Source of the DNA: Sutterella wadsworthensis 2_1_59BFAA
GTDB taxonomy: Bacteria > Pseudomonadota > Gammaproteobacteria > Burkholderiales > Burkholderiaceae_F
DNA: 64,000 nt
Assembly (NCBI RefSeq): GCF_000297775.1
Contig: NZ_JH815516.1
Span: forward strand, 71,226-135,225
Reading direction: 5' to 3'
Shown one piece after another: positions 34,975 to 47,129 of the stretch; positions within the stretch are counted from its first letter, which is position 1; every line of letters begins with the position of its first letter. A program made the translations under genes and the position numbers. The notes beneath the pieces are model-generated. The model did not search any database, had not been told where the DNA came from, and saw only the letters and a list, made by a program, of their open reading frames with translations.

Positions 34975-36134
34975 ATGGCTAGAAAGCGCACCCTGTCAAC
35001 ACTCGACACCTCTATCGCATACGCTGTTGGCCTCGACCTTGCCAAGGAGGATACTGCCATTGCCGCATTCGGCCCTGACCACGAGGGGCCTTATCTCATT
35101 GACCGTATGCCCTACGACAAGCTCTATGAGCTTCTGGCAGACATGGCTCCGACCTTGGTAGCCATGGAGCCATGCAGTGGTGCTCATCAGATCGCCGAGC
35201 AGATTCAGGAGCTCGGACATGAAGTCATGATGATCAGCGGGCGGCATGTCCAGGCATGGGTCAAGGATCATTGCAATGGCCAGAAGACCGACCTCAATGA
35301 CGCGTTTGCCATCCTGAATCTGGCCTATGACCGCTGGCTGACGCCCATCCGCGGGAAGACGCGTGAGGAATGCCGTCTGCTTGCTCTGCAGGCCTCCTAT
35401 CGCCAATTAAAGGGGCAGCGAACGAAGACTATGGTGCACGTCAAGGCTACGCTTCATGCATGGGGATTTCCCATCCGTGCAGGCTCCTTCAACCAGAAGG
35501 CTCTGCATGAGCTGATCGATGCCAACCGAGAGGCTTTCGGTGATGAAGTGGTAGAGACTCTGCACCTCATGATCAACCGGGTGCATGATCTCGACCATGA
35601 CATTGCAACGGTGCTGAAGCTCCTGACAGAGGCTACCAAGCGCGATCCTCGGGCTTCCTGCTCCGTTCCATACCGGGATTCGGAGTGCTGACGACGAGCC
35701 GTTGATGCGCTGTAGTGGGTGACATCGCAAGATTCGATTCCCCAAAACAGACCATGGCGTTCATTGGTCTTGTCCCGAATAACAGAATTACCGGGCATCA
35801 CACGGAGACCTCTTCCGGTCGTGAAGCCCGAGGCCAGGGAAAGATGTCGAAGCGAGGAGACAAGATGCTCCGATCGCTCTGCATTATGGGTGCAGGCTCA
35901 TTGTGTTTGATGGTACGCAACGACCGTTTGCCTGACTGTCCCTTTGTTGCAAGCATCAAGGAGCGCCTGGCATCGCCAAGACCTTGGTTTAAAGTTCTAG
36001 TCTATGTCGCAGCCAAGTTGGTGCGCATAGCCACAGCTCTCCTCAAATACGGAGAGACGTTCAGCTTCGAGAAAGCTGGCATATCGAAGGCGGTACTGAA
36101 GCAGTGGGAGCTTGAACAAGCCAAAGCCGCATAA
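34975..36134 (+). pseudogene. IS110/IS1111 DEDD transposase, frameshifted
   Basis: From ATG 34975 the RuvC-like DEDD domain is visible: VGLDLAKEDTAIAAFG, LVAMEPCSGAHQIAEQ and GQKTDLNDAFAILNLA. The first frame ends at 35691. The Tnp_20 domain continues in another frame (FLLRSIPGFGVLTTS, then VVGDIARFDSPKQTMAFIGL, ETSSGREARGQGKMSKRGDK) to 36134. At least one frameshift near 35660 and small indels around 35700, which also create a TGA, break the gene. It can no longer act alone. Confidence 0.85.
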
Positions 36135-36439: not shown

Positions 36440-37930
36440 GGGCCTCATTTCCTGAATTCACGCGAGCAAGCTCGCTCAAATTAGTACGGCCCGCGGCCAC
36501 TGCGAGAGCGCTTTCGCGCTCACGCACCGCCTGCGGCGGAAAATACTTGACATCTTGCTTGACAAGAGTGGGCGGTCCAGAGATGTGAGGCGGGGAGGAA
36601 TGGCGGAAAAGACAGCAAAATGCGAGGCATACGCCAAAATAGGAAGCCTCATATAATCAAATAGCAATACCTTTCCTGCCTTTGTCCGAATGATCCGCGC
36701 CATCCGAATTCGACTCTATCCGACGCCCGACCAGAAAAAATATCTGGCCGGTCTTTTCGGTGCCGTACGATTCTGCTTCAACAAGGCGCTGTATCTCAAG
36801 ACGCATTTCTACAAGGTGAAGGGTGTCAATCTTCACCCGATTCACGACCTCAAGAAGCTCATCGCCATTGCTAAAAATACGAAGAAGTACGCTTGGCTGG
36901 CGGAATACGACTGCATGGCGTTACAGGAATCTGTTCGCAATCTGAACAAAGCCTATAGCCGCTTCTTCAAGAAGGAAGCCGGATATCCGCGCTTCAAGTC
37001 CCGACGCGGCGAACAGTCCAGCTACCATTGCACCGGCGTTTCGGCAGGAGACGACTTCGTCAAGGTGCCGAAGATGAAGAAGATCAAGGCCGTCATGCAT
37101 CGGAAGATCGAAGGCAAGGTCAAGAGCATCACGCTCTCGATGGATGCCTGCGGCGACTACTGGGCTTCCGTTCTCTACGAGGACGGCCTCCCCGAAGCCG
37201 TACCTGCGACATGCGTTCGCCAGACCAAGACGGTAGGCGTCGACGTCGGCATTGAGACCTTCGGCACATGTTCCGACGGTGAAAAGATCAAGTCTCCCAA
37301 GGCTCTCAAGAGCGCCGAAAAGAAGCTTAAGAAGGCGCAACGCGCCTTCTCAAGAAAGCAGAAAGGTAGCAAGAATCGTGAAAAGGCCCGCAAGCGTCTG
37401 GCGCGACTGCACCGCAAGGTGAAGCGCCGCCGCAGCGACTTCCTTCACAAGACATCTCGACGATTGGTGAACGATAACCAAGCGCTGATTTTCGAGACTT
37501 TGAAAATTCAAGGCATGATGAAGAATCACCATCTGGCAAAGGCGATTGCCGATGCGGGATGGGCTGAATTCATGCGCCAGTGCGAATACAAGGCGAAGCA
37601 TGAAGGCAGGATCTTTGCAAAGATCGGCACCTTCTATCCGTCTTCGAAGACGTGTTCCGCCTGCGGTCACAAGCTCAAGGAACTGAGCCTTGCAACCCGC
37701 AGCTGGACTTGTCCGCATTGCGGCGCACATCATGACCGAGACCTAAACGCCTCTCTGAATATCAAACAGGAAGGCATAAGAATGTTGAAGGCGGCTGGGC
37801 TGACCGTCTTGCGCTCGTAACGTCACGAGCCAAAGCCTGTGGAGACATGTAAGACCCGAACGATCGTCCGGGCTGTGTTGAAGAAGCAGGAAGCCTCGCC
37901 CGATTTGTTACAAATCGGACGGGGAGCAGT
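36440..37930 (+). mobile_element. second tnpB-only IS200/IS605-type element
   Basis: The left part holds three short hairpins in a row (GCGAGCAAGCTCGC near 36462, GAGAGCGCTTTCGCGCTC near 36504, and a GC-rich one near 36528). The right end has a 19-base palindrome (CCGATTTGT.ACAAATCGG, 37900-37918) followed by ggggagcagtcac. The single gene is an intact tnpB. It sits next to the IS110 element, and both lie within one host gene. Exact boundaries are uncertain by tens of bases. Confidence 0.65.
36690..37820 (+). CDS. tnpB: TnpB RNA-guided nuclease (canonical zinc finger)
   Basis: The 376-residue protein from ATG 36690 starts with the typical MIRAIRIRLYPTPDQKKYLA. The HTH_OrfB region includes GAVRFCFNKALYLK and YPRFKSRRGEQSSY. 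The RuvC triad is TVGVDVGIETFGTCSDG (Asp), ALIFETLKIQGMM (Glu) and HDRDLNASLNIKQEG (Asp). The zinc ribbon CSACGHKLKEL...CPHCGAHH is intact. It belongs to a different branch from the proteins at 18994 and 51558. The family is an RNA-guided DNA endonuclease using a right-end omega RNA; the RNA would lie at about 37821-37930 with its guide running into the split host gene. Confidence 0.92.
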   Translation: MIRAIRIRLYPTPDQKKYLAGLFGAVRFCFNKALYLKTHFYKVKGVNLHPIHDLKKLIAIAKNTKKYAWLAEYDCMALQESVRNLNKAYSRFFKKEAGYPRFKSRRGEQSSYHCTGVSAGDDFVKVPKMKKIKAVMHRKIEGKVKSITLSMDACGDYWASVLYEDGLPEAVPATCVRQTKTVGVDVGIETFGTCSDGEKIKSPKALKSAEKKLKKAQRAFSRKQKGSKNREKARKRLARLHRKVKRRRSDFLHKTSRRLVNDNQALIFETLKIQGMMKNHHLAKAIADAGWAEFMRQCEYKAKHEGRIFAKIGTFYPSSKTCSACGHKLKELSLATRSWTCPHCGAHHDRDLNASLNIKQEGIRMLKAAGLTVLRS

Positions 37931-43178: not shown

Positions 43179-43829
43179 ATGACAGAAGGCAACCACGAAG
43201 CAGGAGCGACGGACGTCACCGTGCGACACGTCCGGCGCACCAGACGCATCTGCGTGCACAATGCAACCGAGATTGGCGCACTGGTTCGTCTTGCGCGCCA
43301 ACGTCTGGGCATGTCTCAGACGGATGCGGCGATCTGCTGCGGCGTAGGCCGCCGCTTCCTTGTCGAGCTCGAGAATGGCAAGCCCACCGTGCAGCTCGAC
43401 AAGATGCTGGTCGTCCTGGATGCGCTCGGCATGGGCCTCATGGTCCGCGGTCCCGGCGTCTCCTTTACGGCCGAGGAGCTTGCGCAGGCCGCCGTCAAGC
43501 GCGAGTCCGAAGATCCGCCGCACGTCTGGGAGGCGGAGTTTTCGTCGGGCGTCGATCGTCCGAAGCGCCCCGATGCGTCCGAGAAGCCGCACCGCGGCCG
43601 CACGCCGGGCACCGTCGCCCTGAAGTACCGCCGCCAGTCCTCCGTGAGGGAAGAAGGAGGGACTCTGGTCTACGAGACGGTCGACACGAACCCCGTCATC
43701 GCGAAGAAGAAGGAGAAGCACGTCGAAGTATGCCTTCGACAGCCCAAGCGCCGCAACAAGTCTGATGACACGAGCCCCGTGACCGACTTCGGCGGCTCGA
43801 TGCGTCTGGACACCAACGGCCGCGGCTGA
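43179..43829 (+). CDS. HipB-like XRE regulator with a long C-terminal extension
   Basis: The 216-residue protein from ATG 43179 (GGGAAG upstream) has an XRE helix-turn-helix: EIGALVRLARQRLGMSQTDA, CCGVGRRFLVELENGKPTVQ, LVVLDALGMGLMVRGP, the layout of HipB-type antitoxins. Residues 100-216 are basic, low in known motifs, and include a Lys-rich stretch (NPVIAKKKEKHVEVCLRQPK). No toxin gene follows in the same direction; the convergent neighbour is a HipA-like gene that has its own small HipB. It may be an orphan antitoxin or a regulator that took over. Confidence 0.82.
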   Translation: MTEGNHEAGATDVTVRHVRRTRRICVHNATEIGALVRLARQRLGMSQTDAAICCGVGRRFLVELENGKPTVQLDKMLVVLDALGMGLMVRGPGVSFTAEELAQAAVKRESEDPPHVWEAEFSSGVDRPKRPDASEKPHRGRTPGTVALKYRRQSSVREEGGTLVYETVDTNPVIAKKKEKHVEVCLRQPKRRNKSDDTSPVTDFGGSMRLDTNGRG

Positions 43830-43876: not shown

Positions 43877-43912
43877 AGAAGGGCAGAATGCCGTGAAGCA
43901 TCCTGCCCTTCG
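43877..43912. terminator. bidirectional terminator between the HTH gene and hipA
   Basis: AGAAGGGCAG-ATG and CAT-CTGCCCTTC(T) form a stem of about 13 bp around an 8-nt loop between the convergent genes. Confidence 0.8.
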
Positions 43913-43974: not shown

Positions 43975-45267
43975 TCAAAGGTTTTCCTCGAAGAGCGGCG
44001 CCATGTAGGCGATGTCCCTCGGGTCGGCTCCGAATTCCTCGGCGAGTCCCTCCCAGCCCGAGAGGATGCGGCGCATCTCCATGAGGATGCCCTTGGCGTC
44101 GCTCACGGTGAGCCCGAAGTAGCGGGCGTAGGGAATGGCGTCGTCCGCGCAGGAGAGACGCCTGCGGCCGTCCATCGTGAGGCCCCGGCCCTGGGCCGAG
44201 GGATTCCACTCGAGCGTGTGGGCGGGCGAGAGGCGCCAGCCGAGCGGCTCCCTGTGGAACTGCCAGCGGTTGAGCGAGTCGCCCGCGCCGCCCGTGAGGA
44301 GCTGGAAGGCGATGCGCCGCCACATCTGGGGGAGGTCCTCCTTCGGGGCCGCGCCGCCGCCGTTGAGGATGTCGGCGAGCGCCAGATAGCCGGGCGGAAC
44401 GGGTCTCGGGGACTCCTGACGGGCGGCAAGCGTTGCGCCCGTGAGGGTCAGGAGGGGCTTGTCGGCGGGCGCGTCCGCATTCGCGCCCCTGCGGTCCGCA
44501 CGGCGCGTGAAGAGGATGTTCTCGCCCATTTCGTGCTCGAGGTCCGTCTCGACCGTGCGGATGCCGCAACGTTTGGCGGCGACGAGCGCCATGTGCATCC
44601 AGAGGGGGCGGTCGATCGGATCGAGCATGCTCCTCAGTCTTGCGGTCTGCGCCTCGCGATGCCGCTCGACCGTGAAGACGGGACGGCGGCCGGGGAGCGT
44701 GAGGCCGTTCTGAAGCAGGCTGACCTCGTCGCTCCCAGCCTTGCCGCGCTCCATCGCGTGGTAGGCGTAGATGAGTTCGGGAAGCTCCGACTGGCGCTTG
44801 ACGCGCGGACGCTCGGGCAGGGGATCGACATCGACGGGCGTCACCGAAAGGGCCCCGAGCGAGTCGGTCCTGTGGGGGAGAAGCAGTGCGGTCGTCTCGA
44901 GTCTGCCCGCCCCTTCGGGAAGGCCCGAGAGCGGAGAGGCGGGGTCATTGAAGATGGAGAAGACGGGGGCGCTGATCGCGCGGTCTTCCAGAAAACCGAA
45001 CGCCGACTTTCCGAGCCTCGGACGCAGCACGCCGTGCTCGAGCGGGAGGTCCGCGCCGAGCGGCACGCCCGACTCGACCCAGTCGCCGTCGTACTGAAAG
45101 CGCATCACCGCCGCGGCGCGGGCGGCCTGAGCCGGCGATGCGCCCGGATCTTGAAGAGTTCCCGAACGGGGTCCTGTTGAAAGAGGGACGGCCAGGCGTC
45201 CGACGAGAGGGTCGCCGGGGAGCCAGCGCGCACGAATCTCATAAAGACGCAGGGAAGGGCTTCTCAT
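43975..45267 (-). CDS. hipA: HipA-family protein lacking the kinase catalytic residues
   Basis: The 430-residue protein lies 6 bases after hipB, with AAGAAGGAG as its ribosome-binding site. HipA features are the Couple_hipA-like N-terminal domain (FGFLEDRAISAPVFSIFNDP), an R-DR motif (ILFTRRADRRG) and the C-terminal kinase block (EDLPQMWRRIAFQLLTGGAG, LGWRLSPAHTLEWNPS). Where active HipA has N/T-D-x-H-x-x-N, this protein has GAGDSLNR. The Asp of the DFG-like LSPxYD motif is Thr (LSPAHT). By ungapped alignment with E. coli HipA the residues equal to D309, N314 and D332 are all lost. It is full length and undamaged otherwise, so it is probably a pseudokinase, not a random pseudogene. Confidence 0.85.
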   Translation of the reverse strand: MRSPSLRLYEIRARWLPGDPLVGRLAVPLSTGPRSGTLQDPGASPAQAARAAAVMRFQYDGDWVESGVPLGADLPLEHGVLRPRLGKSAFGFLEDRAISAPVFSIFNDPASPLSGLPEGAGRLETTALLLPHRTDSLGALSVTPVDVDPLPERPRVKRQSELPELIYAYHAMERGKAGSDEVSLLQNGLTLPGRRPVFTVERHREAQTARLRSMLDPIDRPLWMHMALVAAKRCGIRTVETDLEHEMGENILFTRRADRRGANADAPADKPLLTLTGATLAARQESPRPVPPGYLALADILNGGGAAPKEDLPQMWRRIAFQLLTGGAGDSLNRWQFHREPLGWRLSPAHTLEWNPSAQGRGLTMDGRRRLSCADDAIPYARYFGLTVSDAKGILMEMRRILSGWEGLAEEFGADPRDIAYMAPLFEENL

Positions 45268-45273
45268 TTTTGC

Positions 45274-45582
45274 TCATATCTCCTTCTTCGGCTGGCGGGC
45301 CCGGCGGGGGAGGCGGCGTGCCTCGAGCATGAGCCCCGTCTCATCGTCGCCCGCAGCGGCGACGTCGGAGAAGGGGGTGCCTAGCCCGAGCGCCTGAAGG
45401 ACCGAGGCGACGTTGCCGATCGCGATCCCGCAGTCGCCGTTTTCAAGTTTTGAGAGGGTGTTGAGCGAAATGCCCGCACGCTCCGCCACGACGGACTGGG
45501 GAAGCCTGCGGCGAAGACGCGCCGCCTTGAGGTTGGCGCCAAGCGTCCTGACGGACTCCTCAACTGCAAAACTGGGTCTCAT
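45274..45582 (-). CDS. hipB: HipB-like XRE antitoxin
   Basis: 102 residues with the HTH NLKAARLRRRLPQSVVAERA, SLNTLSKLENGDCGIAIGNV, LQALGLGTPF, and a short basic tail (LPRRARQPKKEI). It is directly upstream of hipA in one transcription unit, the usual hipBA order. It should bind its own promoter and the HipA partner. Since HipA looks catalytically dead, HipB may now act only as a repressor. Confidence 0.9.
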   Translation of the reverse strand: MRPSFAVEESVRTLGANLKAARLRRRLPQSVVAERAGISLNTLSKLENGDCGIAIGNVASVLQALGLGTPFSDVAAAGDDETGLMLEARRLPRRARQPKKEI

Positions 45583-47070
45583 AACACGCAGAATCCTGTG
45601 AACTAAACCACTTTACATGAAGGAAAAGAGAGTTAAGGTCTTTTTTGAGCTTTTCGTTCGAAAAGGCGGAAAATCGCCGTTTTCGGGCCCTTTTCCGCAT
45701 GAATCCGAAGTTCGGCCCGAAGTCCTAACATCTCGAATAATGGGAATTATACGCCTTTCATCCCTCGAATGCTGTGAATTAAGCAAGATTTTTGAGGTGG
45801 TTCGGGGGCGTCATTCTGAACCCGTGCGTCATTTTGAAGGCTTTTTGAAAGGCAGCGTCTTCGTTTTTGCGAGTTTCCAGGCTCAAAACCGACAGGCCGT
45901 TCGTGCGGTTTTGAGCGTGGTCCGGCAAAAATACGAGAACTCGCCGGCGTACGTCCGACGCGCCGGCCTTCACGATTGTGCTCTCCCCTTTCAGGGAGTC
46001 TGCGTCACTCTCTTCAAAAGCGAAGCGTCGGGAGGGACTTTCGAAGGCTTCTTCATGCCTCCTTTCGTCCAAGGGGCGACAGACCCTCCGAGACCGCCTC
46101 TTTAAACAAAAATGCTTAACTTTGGAAGGCGCGCGAAGATGAACGGTGCTGAGTCCTGTCGCAGCACGCTTGCGCGAAATTCATCCCGTTTGTTTGCGTC
46201 CCGTCCTGATCGCCTACTGCTGGAGGCGTTTGCAAGTGACGGACGATCCGCGTCCTTCTTGAGAAGACGGTTTTTTCCTCTTTTTTGAGGGTTCGGACGC
46301 CTTTTTCAGGGCGTTTAGGACCCTGACGGGGTCTGAACGACGCCTTGAAGCAGCCGTCGGAAGCGGCGTACAGCGGCGGCACAGGGTGCGTATTTTGCCT
46401 CAAAACGCCCGCTTCGGGGGACTTTTTTCGACCGAGCCCGGCTGTCGTTTTTGCACGACTTGATATGCTGGCACTGCACGCCTCCCTTCCTGAGGTCGGG
46501 GAGGACCGCCTTCGGGGAGTCGGCAGTAGATGACCAACAAAAACCCGAACGGGAATCAAACGACCGTTGATGCAGGAGAGGAAGAGAAGTGTCGTTCGGT
46601 TTTGCCGGACGGCGAAAAAAGCGCCTCTGAGGGGCTTCTGAAGACGGTGTCGATGCGCTCGCCGATGCCGTCCCGGGGCATCCCGATGGGCTCAGGAGCC
46701 GTTGTTCACAGTTGCGCCCTGGGGCCCCAGGGAAGCCCTGTCCGGACCTCTGCAGTGGCGCCTGAGCATGATCCCGTCGAGAGGTGTCCGGTGCTTGCCT
46801 TGGGCTTTGCGGGCCTCAGCAGTCGAGCTCACGCCTCCCGAACATCGTCGTTTCGGAGGTGCGAACGGGGAGGGGCGGGCGGAGGCCGGGCGCGTATGTT
46901 TTCTCACGGTCCCCTTTGGGTCAAGTGAGAGTTTCAGGCAAGTGATTCGGGTCTCGGCCCATGTGAATTTTCGATCCTTCGCGCGTTTTCGTGAGACGAT
47001 CGTGCAGATGAGGGTATGACGGGCGAGAGGGCTGCAGGGCGGCCTCGCGGGCTTTCAGACAACCAATGAA
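45583..47070. other. 1.5-kb gene-poor region with many hairpins
   Basis: No frame here has convincing start signals, codon bias or known motifs, on either strand. Several strong inverted repeats are visible. GCTCAAAACCG pairs with CGGTTTTGAGC (45881-45917). A stem of 15 bp or more with a TGAC loop lies at about 46304-46345. CGTTCGG/CCGGACG occurs near 46592-46610, and a perfect 16-base palindrome CCCTGGGGCCCCAGGG near 46718-46733. The base composition is less GC-rich and more T-rich than that of the flanking genes. It may hold non-coding RNA or the eroded remains of lost genes. Confidence 0.5.
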
Positions 47071-47071
47071 A

Positions 47072-47106
47072 AGGCGGCGCGGGAGCACGTGGCTCCGGCG
47101 CCGCCT
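47072..47106 (-). terminator. terminator of the EamA transporter gene
   Basis: On the minus strand AGGCGGCGC-GGAGC pairs with GCTCC-GCGCCGCCT and is followed by TTTT. Confidence 0.75.
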
Positions 47107-47129
47107 GAAGGATGCGGTGGGAAAGGCGG

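Follow-up and report, generated by a model that had tools for sequence, protein, structure and literature searches.

A conserved hipBA operon of Sutterella and related genera encodes a HipA homologue predicted to be kinase-dead

Introduction

The 64,000-nucleotide stretch of the Sutterella wadsworthensis 2_1_59BFAA genome analysed here (the window) encodes a hipBA operon whose HipA protein keeps the full HipA fold and is, by its sequence, kinase-dead. In Escherichia coli K-12, HipBA is a type II toxin–antitoxin pair in which HipA is a Ser/Thr kinase. In the window the kinase site has been lost, yet the gene is kept under selection beside hipB and its operators, so that the toxin–antitoxin pair seems to have been converted to a kinase-free function. 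On balance we favour the view that this is a domesticated hipBA module, whose HipA would be a pseudokinase acting by binding (as a co-repressor or scaffold) and not by phosphorylation. The question bears on a long-standing one, what chromosomal toxin–antitoxin modules are for, and the host species, several of which can be cultured, are common inhabitants of the gut.

Results

The operon and the HipA fold

The operon lies on the reverse strand. Its first gene, hipB (45274..45582), encodes an Xre-type helix-turn-helix (HTH) protein of 102 aa, and 6 bp separate its stop codon from the ATG of hipA (43975..45267), which encodes one continuous chain of 430 aa; there is no third gene between them. 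HipA_C (Pfam) matches the window HipA at 38.4 bits (cut-off 30.5) and matches all 17 members of a set formed by the window protein and its named relatives. The Couple_hipA profile, which covers N-subdomain-1, falls below its cut-off in the window HipA and matches 9 of the 17. An AlphaFold2 model, for which the input was 17 sequences (window and relatives), is full-length and HipA-like (mean pLDDT 85.8, pTM 0.87). When Foldseek was run with this model, the top solved structures were HipA of E. coli and of Shewanella (TM 0.59–0.66, E down to 5.8e-14); a PDB search by sequence alone with the window HipA gave no meaningful match, and PADLOC left the protein unmatched. The hipBA layout, the coordinates and the HipA fold given by the initial annotation of this DNA are confirmed. 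The protein is a HipA homologue by fold and domain, and we do not file it as a Hip kinase because the catalytic, Mg and loop features are absent.

Loss of the kinase residues

Residues were numbered after E. coli K-12 HipA (MG1655), and 28 other HipAs were included in the alignment. In E. coli HipA, D332 binds Mg, K181 is the ATP lysine and S150 is the autophosphorylation serine. The window protein replaces S150 by T190, K181 by R210, D309 by G329, H311 by S331, N314 by R334 and D332 by T351. The former catalytic loop (residues 325–337, TGGAGDSLNRWQF; 44257..44295, reverse strand) occupies the place of the canonical xNxDDHxRNHGF and contains the D309, H311 and N314 substitutions; the TDxHxxN motif is absent and the window protein reads GAGDSLNR. 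The T351 codon, at the position of the Mg-binding D332, is found at 44215..44217 (reverse strand). The former Gly-rich loop (residues 188–200, GLTLPGRRPVFTV; 44668..44706, reverse strand; canonical GSSLGGARPKAxx) has kept one Gly but neither S150 nor the Lys at position 157: where canonical proteins have this loop with Ser150, and the ATP Lys181, the window protein has TLPGRRPV and Arg.

These residue calls are correct because the catalytic loop aligns gap-free with that of E. coli HipA and is fixed in place at either end by conserved residues common to kinases and non-kinases (R318, F321, F337, G343, W344, L346). The loss of D309, N314 and D332, first noticed in the initial annotation, is therefore real, and it extends further, to the Gly-rich loop, K181 and the autophosphorylation serine. 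We infer that the window HipA would have no kinase activity.

A clade that shares the loss

Relatives were sought in 67 genomes of the family, and 26 of the loci found (L001–L026) make up the clade studied here. A single-protein search of the genome contigs yielded no relatives; an alignment-based search of the contigs yielded 16. The clade is present in 26 of 31 genomes (Sutterella 11/12, Parasutterella/Aphodousia 7/9, Duodenibacillus 8/10, with one more possible as a fragment). The frames are intact across the 26 genomes, named isolates with an intact frame being S. wadsworthensis DSM 14016, S. seckii, Parasutterella secunda and Duodenibacillus massiliensis. D309 is absent from all 26 members, an Asp aligns at D332 in just one of 23 non-redundant members, and H311 survives in one closely related pair. 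K181 and N314 are kept, within the clade, in Parasutterella only: the Parasutterella/Aphodousia members L013, L016, L018, L020 and L022–L024 have both residues and have lost D309, H311 and D332, possibly an intermediate state in which nucleotide might still be bound.

All 28 Burkholderiales outgroup HipAs (L027–L030, L054–L077) keep D309, H311, N314, D332, K181 and S150; every motif is also present in the nine best matches that a phylum-wide search gave outside the clade, and in other HipAs of the same genera wherever the loop is readable (a broken copy, L134, and the start of L122 were unscored). A profile of the clade scores its own members at about 440–500 bits and all other proteins at 259 or less. 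Phylogenetic analysis grouped the kinase-dead proteins with support of 97/87, or 99/93 when the active-site columns were removed, and every genus was monophyletic at 100. The possibility that the window protein is a lone mutant is thus ruled out, since a monophyletic clade shares the loss in 26 genomes. The search for close homologues that the initial annotation had proposed recovered a single well-supported clade, with the homologues that have intact motifs in a separate one, and by sequence no alternative Asp/Asn pair is conserved at the site. At the sequence level, then, neither of the two outcomes that the initial annotation named as refuting its reading was observed.

HipB is adjacent to and directly upstream of hipA in 25 of the 25 loci with enough upstream sequence. 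Within a genus the gene order around the operon is fixed, with the exception of some changes confined to particular lineages; from one genus to another it varies. Searches of viral contigs, phages and plasmids gave no phage relative and no near plasmid copy, only distant plasmid HipAs of < 31% identity among the matches listed. The clade hipBA is chromosomal and vertically inherited. The simplest interpretation is that the residues were lost once, in a shared ancestor, and that the gene has been passed on vertically since.

Selection on HipA and HipB

For close pairs, dN/dS (counting method NG86, which is saturated for distant pairs) is 0.09–0.27 for HipA and 0.01–0.06 for HipB, values that indicate clear purifying selection on both proteins; HipA has evolved several times faster than HipB. 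Across the clade 26 HipA positions are invariant. The five catalytic columns, in contrast, are as variable as the average column (entropy 2.26 versus 1.98), and the same five are invariant in canonical HipAs. Since catalytic columns vary and other positions do not, the ATP/catalytic site has been released from constraint and the rest of the protein has not. Residues of N-subdomain-1 and of the C-lobe helices have been retained or newly fixed (G67, D73, P75, F90, D299, G305, L312, Y383, F384), and G67, D73, P75, F90 and F92 of N-subdomain-1 are more strongly fixed in the clade than in canonical HipAs. This fixation would fit a kept contact surface, although it is no proof of one.

Decay, as a pseudogene or through an assembly artefact, is scarcely credible. 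An eroded active site and a low HipA_C score are what decay would predict, but intact frames in 26 genomes (named isolates included), low dN/dS and invariant non-catalytic residues contradict it, and we regard a pseudogene as refuted by the low dN/dS and the clade-wide conservation. The monophyletic loss, intact frames and purifying selection support the suggestion, made when the DNA was first read, of selection for a non-kinase role.

Operators at the hipB promoter

Motif sampling in the hipB promoters found that they share a 22-bp palindrome. A matrix was trained on the sites of other species, with the window, L002, L003 and several further Sutterella left out. In the 64-kb window its two best sites both lie at hipB on the reverse strand: a predicted proximal operator (AGTTCACAGGATTCTGCGTGTT; 45583..45604; 18.0 bits, rank 1), which abuts the hipB start codon, and a predicted distal operator (AATTCCCATTATTCGAGATGTT; 45727..45748; 16.5 bits, rank 2), 144 bp upstream of the proximal one and at an identical position (−166) in two near relatives. 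The next site in the window scores 11.1 bits and the largest of 20 shuffled maxima is 12.2. The 23 promoters contain 32 palindrome sites versus 0.63 expected from shuffles; most training sites sit among the 32, and the independent test is the window with its relatives. Distances between sites within one promoter are 31, 32, 102, 113, 144, 154 and 176 bp. These spacings fall on one helical phase (period about 10.25 bp; 0.24% of random sets score as high), a result that is merely suggestive because several of the distances are not independent.

Genome-wide pattern searches in Sutterella, Parasutterella and Duodenibacillus located in each genome a single strong site or a single cluster of sites, and this lay at hipB. 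The search for a regulon outside hipB, by three genus-specific patterns and a fourth, wider one, gave a small excess over reversed-pattern controls, with no common gene evident. The lack of a strong second operator locus points to autoregulation, and a predicted autoregulation of hipBA is well supported at the sequence level, whereas a regulon finds no such support.

Between hipB and an EamA transporter gene lies about 1.5 kb (45605–47129) with no recognised gene or RNA. It has no Rfam match, and its alignment to the nearest relative is confined to the final 25 bp, which are the operator. Other Sutterella have a comparably long gap upstream of hipB, unrelated in sequence except for the operators. 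A promoter and terminator scan called nothing. In the interval that separates hipA from the convergent HTH gene, a 14-bp inverted repeat (43878..43911), uncalled by the terminator scan, is a possible two-way terminator.

Neighbouring genes

The longer HipB-like HTH protein that the initial annotation put forward as a possible HipA partner (43179..43829, forward strand; 216 aa with a low-complexity tail; couple_hipB 63.9 bits, under the cut-off of 71.65) is real and convergent with hipA, but the case for it as a partner is weak at best. Seven of the 12 Sutterella genomes encode it, and no Parasutterella or Duodenibacillus genome does; in five of the seven its relatives stand beside hipA and in two they are unlinked to it. 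Gene order alone explains its position, and it is probably a linked, Sutterella-only neighbour and not part of the module. In two Sutterella genomes (G060 and G061; loci L081 and L082) a relative of this protein forms an in-frame fusion with a GNAT acetyltransferase and lies away from hipA; the order in L082 (961–2001) is GNAT then HTH_31.

Further away the window encodes a partial IS110-type DEDD transposase of 238 aa (34975–35691, forward strand) and an IS605 OrfB/TnpB-type protein (36690–37820, forward strand) with an OrfB_IS605 and a Cas12f1-like TNB domain. Four Sutterella genomes, that of the host and three others (G000, G052, G055 and G062), encode no HipA_C protein besides the kinase-dead HipA; sister species add intact HipAs, which are patchy in distribution.

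Discussion

Wild-type HipA–HipB complexes repress their own operon in E. coli. We suggest that in the clade HipB would bind the phased palindromic operators of the hipB promoter and pair with HipA, which, transferring no phosphate, would serve as a bridging partner, co-repressor or scaffold in a HipB–HipA–DNA assembly. If HipA binds and bridges in this way, the pair would act as an autoregulated switch rather than as a kinase toxin. Both the binding of HipA to HipB and the bridging of operators are inferred. The co-repressor role raised in the initial annotation is compatible with the conserved phased operators and the ever-adjacent HipB, and remains a proposal. The fuller history, a single conversion in the common ancestor of the three genera to a nearly fixed, kinase-free device (a HipB repressor and a pseudokinase HipA on helically phased operators, working by binding alone), we consider evenly poised. 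Three points weigh against the favoured reading. If autoregulation were the sole output, some further benefit would be needed to explain why the operon has been retained for so long, and the search for a regulon found none; the Parasutterella members with K181 and N314 may retain some nucleotide binding; and the faster evolution of HipA relative to HipB would also fit a weakly needed HipA.

The main rival is a toxin of a different kind: free HipA would arrest growth by binding a target or through some other activity, and HipB would neutralize it. Type II operon order, autoregulation and linkage to HipB are all retained, and residues fixed only in the clade (D73, D299, N302, R339, Y383) could form a new functional surface. 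The near-universal, vertical and syntenic occurrence of this operon in three genera, however, does not resemble that of mobile, patchy toxin–antitoxin modules; the searches found no phage or near plasmid copies, and a new catalytic motif is not evident. We judge this rival to be a serious minority possibility, perhaps half as probable as the domesticated module or a little less. Improbable, by comparison, is residual or relocated catalysis, in which another acidic residue in a remodelled site would take over. D330, which follows the lost D309 by one position, is Asp in 19 of 23 clade members, and Parasutterella keeps K181 and N314. D330 is nonetheless an unlikely substitute because its position is Gly310 in the active E. 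coli HipA and because it is missing in four members (L006, L010, L019, L026), which leaves the loop without an invariant acidic residue. In addition, a single aligned member has kept D332, and Sutterella is also without K181, S150 and the Gly-loop Lys.

Slightly less probable again is a role as decoy or immunity factor, in which HipA would titrate either component, antitoxin or toxin, of a different HipBA pair. Intact HipA proteins do occur as well in several genomes of the three genera, but the host and three other Sutterella genomes keep the gene without any other HipA_C protein, and the neighbouring HTH gene is absent from most of the clade. The decoy role offered with the first reading of the DNA is accordingly disfavoured, and for this host a decoy for another HipA is rejected, its genome encoding no other HipA_C protein.

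Comparison with known systems

Like E. coli K-12 HipBA, the module has the hipB–hipA order, a HipA fold (Foldseek matches 2wiu, 3dnv and 3tpt), an Xre-type HipB and, upstream of hipB, more than one palindromic operator; it also shares the RxDR motif and the Gly that is conserved in the Gly-rich loop. It differs in the loss of D309, H311, N314, D332, K181 and S150 and in being near-universal in its genera. The operators are AATTCGCATAATTATGCGAATT-like and 31–176 bp apart, whereas E. coli hipBA has four operators of the form TATCCN8GGATA at 28/39/28 bp. E. coli HipB binds its multi-operator array cooperatively (PMC3376134). Shewanella oneidensis HipBA (4pu3, 4pu4, 4pu5) shares the HipA fold (Foldseek TM about 0.62) and the operon logic; its HipA holds AMPPNP and Mg in 4pu5, and the residues for both are, by sequence, gone here.

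HipBST, with its kinase HipT (E. coli O127, Legionella), also has a Hip kinase-like core and an N-subdomain-1 element, which HipBST carries as a separate antitoxin, HipS. In the window N-subdomain-1 is fused, as in HipA, and there is no separate hipS gene. According to the accessible text of a 2021 Hip phylogeny, HipT keeps four kinase motifs and the Hip kinase families keep four core motifs (PMC8262856); the core described here is without these four. The nearest sequence relatives outside the clade, the canonical Burkholderiales HipAs (L027–L030, L054–L077), are equal in length and domain order and keep LGGARPK-type loops, K181, DDHxxN and the Mg-motif Asp, which the window HipA is without.

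A kinase-dead HipA clade goes unmentioned in the accessible text of the 2021 phylogeny (PMC8262856), and the open-licence literature on HipA pseudokinases, inactive HipA and Sutterella HipA describes none, although an earlier report elsewhere is possible. The kinase-dead hipBA operon is a new variant among hipBA modules. The annotation 'HipA family toxin' can mislead about the activity of such proteins. A nearly fixed pseudokinase HipA offers a natural separation-of-function case for asking whether HipA contributes to promoter control, or benefits the cell at all, when it does not phosphorylate.
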